From Nibricoccus aquaticus (GTDB taxonomy: Bacteria; Verrucomicrobiota; Verrucomicrobiia; Opitutales; Opitutaceae), in contig NZ_CP023344.1 in NCBI RefSeq assembly GCF_002310495.1, forward strand, positions 1,302,001-1,366,000: a DNA stretch of 64,000 bases, in the 5' to 3' direction. The stretch's first letter is position 1. Each line of letters begins with the position of its first letter. The position numbers were made by a program, and so were the translations under genes. Below the pieces are notes generated by a model. That model did no database searches and was not told the origin of the DNA. It was given only the letters and a program-made list of their open reading frames with translations. Positions 25,515 to 63,222 of the stretch are shown here, piece by piece.

Positions 25515-26561
25515 TCACTGACCCAAGATCCACGAAAAGATCAACGGCGCCACGATCGTCGCATCACTCTCCACGATGAATTTCGGCGTCTTCGCGCCGA
25601 GCTTGCCCCAGGTGATCTTCTCGTTCGGCACCGCGCCCGAGTACGAACCGTAGCTCGTGGTCGAGTCGCTGATCTGCGAGAAATAACCCCACAGCGGCAC
25701 GCTCGTGCGACCAAGATCTTGGTGAAGCATCGGCACCACACAGATCGGGAAATCGCCCGCGATACCGCCGCCGATTTGGAAGAAGCCGATCGAGCCTTCG
25801 CCCGTCTTGAGGAGCTTCGCCGTCTTCGTGTACCACTCGGCAAGCCAAGTCATGTACTCGATGCCCGTGCGCACGGTGTGCACGTTCTTGATTTCGCCCG
25901 TGATCACGCGGCCCGCGAACATATTGCCGAGCGTCGCGTCTTCCCAACCGGGAACGATGATCGGGAGATTCTTCTCCGCCGCCGCCAGCATCCAGGAATT
26001 CTTCGGATCGATCTGGTAGTACTTCTTAATTTTTCCAGATCGCAGAATCTTGTACATGAACTCGTGCGGGAAAAAACGCTGCCCGGCCTTGTCCGCCGCC
26101 AGCCACTCCTCCGCCACCGCCGCTTCGATGCGACGCATCGCTTCGCCTTCGGGAATGCAGGTGTCGGTCACGCGGTTCATGTGGCGGTCGAGCAGCTTCT
26201 GTTCGTCGTCCGCCGTGAGATCGCGGTAGTTCGGCACGCGCTCGTAGTAATCGTGCGCCACAAGATTGAAAATATCCTCTTCGAGATTCGCGCCCGTGCA
26301 GACGATCGCGTGGATCTTATCCTGACGGATCATCTCGGCGAGCGTGAGCCCGAGCTCTGCCGTGGACATCGCGCCCGCGAGCGTGACGAGCATCTTGCCG
26401 CCCGCCTTCAGATGCGCCTCGTAACCCTTCGCAGAGTCGAGGAGCGCCGCCGCATTAAAGTGACGATAGTTATGTGCGATGAACTGCGAGACCGGCCCTT
26501 TTTTGGCGGCGAGTTTCGCGTTGATGTCTTCGGGACGCTGCTTGGCGCGTTTAGCTTTCAT
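25515..26561 (-). CDS. Deoxyhypusine synthase-like protein
   Basis: A 348-residue protein of the deoxyhypusine synthase superfamily. These NAD-dependent enzymes move the aminobutyl group of spermidine to a lysine of eIF5A or to another amine (homospermidine synthesis). Motifs include TLAGAMSTAELG, CTGANLEEDIFN, GGGIAGDFPI and, near the C terminus, ITWGKL with Lys320, corresponding to the lysine that forms the enzyme-spermidine intermediate. Bacteria lack eIF5A, so the true substrate is open; homospermidine synthase activity is one possibility. The start at MKAKRAK was preferred to an ATG seven codons upstream. Length fits the family. Confidence 0.85.
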   Translation of the reverse strand: MKAKRAKQRPEDINAKLAAKKGPVSQFIAHNYRHFNAAALLDSAKGYEAHLKAGGKMLVTLAGAMSTAELGLTLAEMIRQDKIHAIVCTGANLEEDIFNLVAHDYYERVPNYRDLTADDEQKLLDRHMNRVTDTCIPEGEAMRRIEAAVAEEWLAADKAGQRFFPHEFMYKILRSGKIKKYYQIDPKNSWMLAAAEKNLPIIVPGWEDATLGNMFAGRVITGEIKNVHTVRTGIEYMTWLAEWYTKTAKLLKTGEGSIGFFQIGGGIAGDFPICVVPMLHQDLGRTSVPLWGYFSQISDSTTSYGSYSGAVPNEKITWGKLGAKTPKFIVESDATIVAPLIFSWILGQ

Positions 26562-26641
26562 AGAAAAATAAGAAGCGCCCAACTGAGCCGCCCCACACGC
26601 TTAGGTCAGCAAAAAACCTTCGCCGTCTTGGCAACGTCACC

Positions 26642-26669
26642 TAGGCCAGCGTGCTCGCACGCGCTCCGA
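26642..26669. repeat. TAGGCCAGCG hairpin repeat, intergenic copy
   Basis: A 28-bp element with stem GCGTGC / GCACGC and a two-base loop. It is identical to a copy 783 bp downstream that lies inside the EamA coding region, in the same orientation. Confidence 0.8.
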
Positions 26670-26715
26670 AAACTCCGATCTTCGCCCGCTCGCATCTCCA
26701 TTTCGCATCGTTCCC

Positions 26716-27705
26716 ATGACCGGCGCCTTCCTCACCACCCTCCTCTTCTCGCTCTCGGTCATCTTCGCCAACCGCAGCATAGCCGCGCTCGGCCCCATGC
26801 GCGCCAACCTCGGCCGCCTCACCCTCGCCGTCCTCGTGCTCGGCTCCTTCGCGCACACCCTCGGCAACGGCCTGCACGGCGCCGGCCTCACGTGGTTCCT
26901 CCTCAGCGGCGTCATCGGCATGGGCCTCGGCGACCTCGCCCTCTACGGCGCACTCCCGCGACTTGGCTCGCGCCTCAGCCTGCTCATGACGCAATGCCTC
27001 GCCGCCCCCATCGCCGCCCTCGCCGAGTGGCTCTGGCTCGATGTCGCCCTCACGCCCGCGCAGCTCCTCGCCGGCCTCATCATCCTCGCCGGCGTCGCCC
27101 TCGCACTCGCGCCGAAAAAGACCGATCTCACCAAAAACAAAAACCTCCCGCCCTCCTCTGCTCCCTCTTCCCCGTCGCGCATCGTCCCCACGATCACCGC
27201 CCTCGGCCTCACCTTCGGCCTCCTCTCCGCCGCCGGCCAGGGCCTCGGTGCCGTGATGAGCCGCAAAGCCAACCTCGCCGCCGCGCTCGCAGGCGAGCCC
27301 ACCGGCGGCATCGCCCTCGGCATCACCGCCGCCTACCAGCGCATCCTCGCCGGCTTCGTCATCACCGCCGCCTGGTTCCTCCTCCAACACCTCCTCACTT
27401 CCCGCACGCCCGCCGTCACCGCCGTAGGCCAGCGTGCTCGCACGCGCTCCGACGCTCCACCACGCACCTGGCGCTCCTACGCGTGGATCCCCTTCAACGC
27501 CTTCAGCGGCCCGATCCTCGGCGTGAGCTGCTACCAATGGGCGCTCGCAACGACCGCCAGCGGCATCGTCCTCCCCATCGTCGCCTGCACGCCTCTCGTG
27601 ATCATCCCCTTCAGCTACTGGCTCGAAGGCGAACGCCCCACGCCTCGCTCAATCCTCGGCGCCCTCCTCGCCGTCGCCGGCGTGATCGCGCTCAGCCAGT
27701 TTTAG
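26716..27705 (+). CDS. EamA/DMT-family transporter with an in-frame repeat insertion
   Basis: A 329-residue inner-membrane protein with about ten hydrophobic segments and two EamA-like halves (about 3-130 and 155-329), as in drug/metabolite exporters; the substrate is unknown. The halves are joined by a polar loop (KKTDLTKNKNLPPSS). A second loop (about 225-250) contains VGQRARTRSD, which is the translation of a 28-bp intergenic hairpin repeat also present just upstream of the gene. The insertion keeps the reading frame and sits between membrane segments, so the protein may still work. The ATG 47 bp after the intergenic copy was taken as the start. Confidence 0.82.
   Translation: MTGAFLTTLLFSLSVIFANRSIAALGPMRANLGRLTLAVLVLGSFAHTLGNGLHGAGLTWFLLSGVIGMGLGDLALYGALPRLGSRLSLLMTQCLAAPIAALAEWLWLDVALTPAQLLAGLIILAGVALALAPKKTDLTKNKNLPPSSAPSSPSRIVPTITALGLTFGLLSAAGQGLGAVMSRKANLAAALAGEPTGGIALGITAAYQRILAGFVITAAWFLLQHLLTSRTPAVTAVGQRARTRSDAPPRTWRSYAWIPFNAFSGPILGVSCYQWALATTASGIVLPIVACTPLVIIPFSYWLEGERPTPRSILGALLAVAGVIALSQF
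27425..27452. repeat. TAGGCCAGCG hairpin repeat inside a coding region
   Basis: An exact 28-bp copy of the element at 26642, here preceded by G so that the full GTAGG leader is present. It lies in frame within the EamA transporter gene and encodes about nine extra loop residues. Confidence 0.85.
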
Positions 27706-63200: not shown

Positions 63201-63222
63201 GTAGGGGCGGCTTTACGCCGCG
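63201..63222. repeat. GTAGGGGCGGC hairpin repeat
   Basis: GTAGGG leader, stem GCGGC / GCCGC with loop TTTAC. Followed by CGCGCGCGCCTCACGCGCGT, a second imperfect hairpin. Confidence 0.65.

Follow-up and report, generated by a model that had tools for sequence, protein, structure and literature searches.

How did one short repeat come to stand both in front of a transporter gene and, in frame, within its coding sequence, and is the repeat an element that can spread? The question is raised by a stretch of 64,000 nucleotides of the Nibricoccus aquaticus genome (the window; positions 1,302,001 to 1,366,000 of contig NZ_CP023344.1), in which a 28-bp sequence, TAGGCCAGCGTGCTCGCACGCGCTCCGA, occurs at 26642–26669 and again at 27425–27452 (Table 1). 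The two copies are identical, lie on the same strand and are 783 bp apart, as an earlier note on this DNA had reported; that note also placed the first copy 47 bp before the gene, and the copy is indeed upstream, with 46 bases between it and the ATG of the EamA gene at 26716. The element itself begins one base before the 28-bp match, with GTAG at 27424 and CTAG at 26641. A 20-mer of the repeat has two matches in the window at up to three mismatches, with 0.01 expected and none of 100 shuffled sequences reaching two, so that the 28-bp pair is far beyond chance. As a single-stranded hairpin the element folds no better than shuffled sequences (112, 98 and 83 of 200 were at least as good for three forward-strand versions). 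Elsewhere in the window, at 63201–63222, there is another GTAG repeat, GTAGGGGCGGCTTTACGCCGCG, which has one mismatch to a sequence beside the REP at C1:1236359 (C1 being the contig).

Table 1. Positions of the repeat copies and their host gene in the window.
Feature	Position	Strand	Remarks
REP copy 1	26641..26669	+	Between the EamA gene and opposite-strand ORF 25515-26582; CTAG, not GTAG, head; covariance model 49.2 bits
REP copy 2	27424..27453	+	In frame inside the EamA gene; intact GTAG head; encodes VGQRARTRSD; covariance model 53.9 bits, the genome's best
Hairpin core of copy 2	27433..27446	+	5 bp around a 4-nt loop, GCGTG-CTCG-CACGC, predicted for the single strand
EamA-family transporter gene	26716..27705	+	329 aa; PF00892, E 7.6e-18; ten predicted long helices; hosts copy 2

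The genome, a single contig of 4,730,447 bases (4.73 Mb), contains 21 matches to the 28-mer at up to three mismatches. A 27-mer carrying the GTAG head and Y in the loop finds 33 at the same threshold, and the reversed control pattern finds none; these genome-wide counts led us to reject a pair of chance repeats. A covariance model built from the 33 copies, with which 150 of 6738 first-look candidates were scored, returned 37 places at E ≤ 1, comprising the 33, two at E of about 1e-4 and two weak ones; 35 copies are retained at E ≤ 1e-3, and the best score in the genome belongs to the copy inside the EamA gene. Conservation extends from GTAG to about TCCG, with sharp edges, and the stem pairs are standard in 97.6% of cells, covariation being seen at one pair, in two copies, a pair count that 62 of 500 shuffles reach. 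GTAG REPs are defined by a GT(A/G)G head 5' of a GC-rich imperfect palindrome. The GTAG head is found in 29 of the 33 copies, copy 2 included, the others having GCAG (two), TTAG (one) and CTAG (one, copy 1). The copies are many and dispersed, although 33 to 35 is fewer than the more than 100 given as usual in the accessible part of PMC2817692. In a set of 56 relatives, of which 36 share the family, 20 the order and none the genus, two have a single three-mismatch match each to the 27-mer pattern, and in this sample the repeat family is close to private to the lineage.

A candidate enzyme is encoded between two of the copies. Three Y1_Tnp matches are present in the genome, one of them at C1:425740-426303, flanked by REP copies at C1:425713 and 426311. 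Its product contains PDHTHLL and LQYIFLNPYRAGL, read by eye, which we take to be the HUH motif and the tyrosine. It matches the NCBIfam model NF047646 for REP-associated tyrosine transposases (RAYT; 87.4 bits, cut-off 80) and PF01797 (26.8 bits, cut-off 23), and resembles the E. coli TnpArep structure 4er8 (E 8.2e-7). The ORF, left uncalled by our home-made codon-usage model, opens with a GTG in contact with the upstream REP, and translation probably begins at a codon further in. The full copies on either side are both on the + strand, and a degenerate inverted copy (7 mismatches, E 0.51) lies at 426404; inverted REPs are the RAYT flanks described in the accessible text of PMC2817692, an arrangement that only this degenerate copy would restore here. 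The other two RAYT-like genes adjoin copies of two other GTAG repeats, with 10 and 17 copies in the genome. The three genes (L001/L237, L002 and L003) are located at C1:425.7 kb, 2306.0 kb and 2828.3 kb, each adjoining its own GTAG repeat family, GTAGGCCAGCGTGC..., GTAGGGCYGGCACGCCGTGCC... and GTAGGGACGNTGCTCCGCANCGTCC, respectively. The RAYT at C1:425740-426303 is likely the cognate transposase of the window's family. We consider it very probable that the two window copies belong to one GTAG-type REP family served by a RAYT, and that a copy was joined into the loop-coding DNA of the EamA gene. The earlier note's suggestion that the element is, or recently was, able to spread is thus borne out as far as a dispersed, RAYT-linked family of 33 to 35 copies goes; the movement itself, recent or otherwise, is presumed.

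Local copying between the window copies, by gene conversion or duplication in either direction, would produce the pair with no transposition. The copies are close and in the same orientation, identical over 28 bp with the last base in common, and each has CGTCACC before it, though not at quite the same distance. However, the remaining flanks differ beyond the element, as do the heads (CTAG in copy 1, GTAG in copy 2); a TCACC-like, C-rich sequence also precedes other copies, for instance those at 1743169 and 2770089, and a third copy, identical over the 28 bp, is found at C1:4703644, at a distance of 1.36 Mb or more around the circle. We therefore regard local copying as very unlikely.

The surroundings of the other copies were assessed with a home-made ORF caller, trained on the codon usage of the window, together with reading of translations, and the calls are approximate. 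The family is mostly extragenic: the EamA copy is the only one of the 33 found in mid-gene. In six of the 33, the head's TAG serves as the stop codon for a same-strand gene upstream, nine further copies start within 20 nt after the end of such a gene, and some lie in 5' extensions of ORFs, ahead of a plausible start. Transcribed hairpins often act at gene ends, and these 15 of 33 copies overlapping or closely following a same-strand gene end (in our own ORF model) would suit a repeat that is a selected regulatory hairpin, for example an RNA element or a protein-binding site, placed by selection and not mobile. Functional roles of REPs are discussed in the accessible part of PMC3733652. Against a purely regulatory origin, the mid-gene copy, the copy between divergent genes, the restriction of the family to the one genome and the neighbouring RAYT gene are all in keeping with a mobile element, and a scan of 26450-26800 found no terminator at the element itself; just outside it, at 26620-26636, the minus strand has two terminator-like sites. 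A simple scan gave no promoter in front of the EamA gene, and the opposite-strand ORF on the other side of copy 1 may encode a protein like deoxyhypusine synthase, which it resembles by eye. We hold placement by selection to be highly improbable, and a mobile origin does not exclude later functional use of the repeat.

Stop codons supplied by REPs as TAG are already published, according to the accessible text of PMC3733652. For ParA, 26 of 29 homologues end within three residues of the REP-supplied stop, and the genes for the epimerase-like and the substrate-binding protein stop some 2 to 4 residues beyond the end of their nearest homologue (10 loci compared for the former, L149 among them running off its contig, and 15 for the latter, out of 30 listed for each). 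The possibility that GTAG was a pre-existing target, with xxG-TAG stops as landing sites, was dropped; the comparison, made for three of the six genes, favours neither a target-derived nor an element-derived TAG. In other genera, the TAG that ends a ParA homologue (L126, homologue of G002) and a substrate-binding protein homologue (L180, homologue of G012) begins a different GTAG-hairpin-like sequence, as if gene ends attracted REPs repeatedly. A further repeat, of the form GTAGGGCGGGTTAGCC...CCCCGCC, follows or adjoins the REP just downstream in several places (L006, L029, L108); it has no match in the window at three mismatches.

Within the EamA gene, copy 2 occupies the ten codons 27424–27453, corresponding to residues 237–246, VGQRARTRSD, and the earlier note's description of an in-frame copy in a loop agrees with the predicted structure. 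The AlphaFold model (mean pLDDT 90.0) shows a linker at residues 231–251, with a pLDDT of about 64, between helices 199–230 and 252–279; a short helix at 236–244 is contained within this low-confidence linker. The alignment of homologues proposed in that note was carried out on 36 rows, made up of 27 loci (of 30, self excluded) and nine others, with possible overlap of species between the two sets. One row (L059) ends before the loop, and the ten residues are absent from all 35 informative rows; a word check over 31 alignment homologues did not find them either. The nearest homologue (L043, 64% identical) has a gap of ten aligned columns at the insert, which taken alone is only suggestive, since loop length varies among homologues of 64% identity or less. 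The gene looks intact, as 36 columns are invariant over 32 sequences including the EamA protein of the window, which argues against a dead gene. Read from its sequence, the element is stop-free in five of six reading frames, so that insertion of a multiple of three bases should be easily tolerated. The comparison with homologues points most likely to an in-frame REP insertion in this lineage that added ten residues to the EamA protein, in keeping with the earlier proposal that the element can extend a protein. A second EamA loop (window 27110-27180, residues ~132-161) exceeds its counterparts in the homologues shown by about 17 residues, and is not a REP. That VGQRARTRSD is ancestral EamA coding sequence resembling the repeat by chance, with no insertion, has next to no probability and was rejected on the homologue rows: a variable loop might be expected to hold some residues at this place, but none of the 35 rows has these, and nothing else in the genome matches the family of 33 to 35 copies so well, at a chance expectation of 0.01 matches to the 20-mer in the window.

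Insertion of a mobile REP can be pictured as follows. The RAYT, an enzyme of the Y1/HUH kind, would recognise the single-stranded GTAG-plus-hairpin, cut and rejoin single-stranded DNA, and so join a REP copy to C-rich DNA where the EamA gene encodes the loop, with a net gain compatible with 30 bp, or 10 codons. Stop-free frames, a variable linker as the site and a gain of ten codons would together have spared the transporter. We infer RAYT catalysis of the movement, the exact ends and length of the insertion, and a working protein. The strand is rich in C just before the element: upstream of the head, C is found at 92 of 132 positions from −4 to −1, compared with 73 of 198 from −15 to −10, and the internal copy is preceded by CACCGCC, as in intergenic copies. 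In the accessible part of PMC8266576, the TnpAREP proteins of E. coli and Stenotrophomonas cut single-stranded REPs at CT sites, and GTAG serves in recognition, probably as a guide; with a CTAG head, activity is abolished in E. coli, as with any substitution, and reduced in S. maltophilia. By analogy with these enzymes, the internal copy may be a competent RAYT substrate and the upstream one, with its CTAG head, is probably a poor one.

The orientation of the copies follows the composition of the chromosome. GC skew switches near 2.10 and 4.46–4.48 Mb, half a chromosome apart, with local exceptions, for example at 1.07, 1.60, 2.16 and 4.36–4.38 Mb. With 2.10 and 4.47 Mb as the switch points, 56 of 62 copies of the three REP families, not all of them independent, are on the locally C-rich strand: 31 of 35 for the window's family (A), 10 of 10 for the second (B) and 15 of 17 for the third (C). 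Gene direction provides no explanation in the negative-skew half: the + strand there carries 21 of 23 copies but 48% of the coding bases sampled. The corresponding sample from the other half has 69% of its coding bases on the minus strand. Counts of CCCC over twenty 8-kb samples show it to be 8.5 times as frequent on the C-rich strand (1219 versus 144, an expected fraction of 0.894), and the fraction for CCC is 0.816. Since the CCCC fraction matches 31 of 35, a landing site with a run of C in a skewed genome suffices for family A. For the other two, the bases upstream mostly end in AG or GG (seven places in family B, five distinct ones in family C). At the replication fork, the insertion sequence IS608 goes into one particular template strand. 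That RAYTs insert REPs in the same manner is a tentative idea, and we judge it unlikely; if true, REP orientation would be a fossil record of fork direction and the copies inside genes a by-product.

Fork direction itself depends on the position of the origin. The dnaA gene is at C1:376, with two DnaA-box-like sites in the 2 kb before position 1, parA is at 4.703 Mb, and neither skew switch point is at dnaA. By the usual rule, under which the G-rich strand indicates the origin, this would be at 2.10 Mb; dnaA and parA argue for the other side. Either the origin is far from dnaA, or the skew runs, with respect to dnaA and parA, counter to the rule. Seven stretches around the skew switches and dnaA were searched against Rfam with nothing at gathering score, and these stretches thus offer no rRNA gene to fix fork direction. 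A literature search for REP orientation by replichore, with a narrow combination of terms, returned no match. The accessible part of PMC3116915 mentions tandem REP arrays that point in opposite directions on the two sides of a genome, so that REP orientation by chromosome half may be partly known already.

The EamA copy offers a clean single-copy example of a transposase-linked hairpin turned into part of a protein, with its likely cognate RAYT in the same genome. The copies and the RAYT form a defined substrate set for RAYT landing-site choice and for how frequently REPs become coding, and the orientation of the three families yields a testable prediction on strand choice. As the accessible text of PMC3733652 already contains intragenic REPs, TAG stops and RAYT genes flanked by REPs, the EamA copy adds one more instance of an event already known. 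The repeat resembles the GTAG-type REP/RAYT (TnpAREP) families of PMC3733652, PMC2817692 and PMC8266576, as far as their accessible parts describe them, in its GTAG head, short GC-rich hairpin, tens of copies, RAYT between copies, location mostly at gene ends, some inverted pairs, TAG stops and some intragenic copies. It departs from known families in having only about 33–35 copies and a sequence absent from 54 of 56 relatives at three mismatches, and from the described REPtron in that the full copies flanking the RAYT are direct, not inverted. Rickettsia palindromic elements, as cited in the accessible part of PMC3733652, are likewise short palindromic repeats found in frame inside protein genes; they are filed there with the CGTC type or as longer elements, and belong to another phylum. 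The closest parallel is with the intragenic GTAG REPs that the same source reports from several species, Opitutus terrae having the highest number: there, as here, the host is verrucomicrobial and REP-encoded residues occur in working-looking genes, whereas in the present genome only one of 33 copies (by our own calls) is in mid-gene, and the gene is an EamA transporter.
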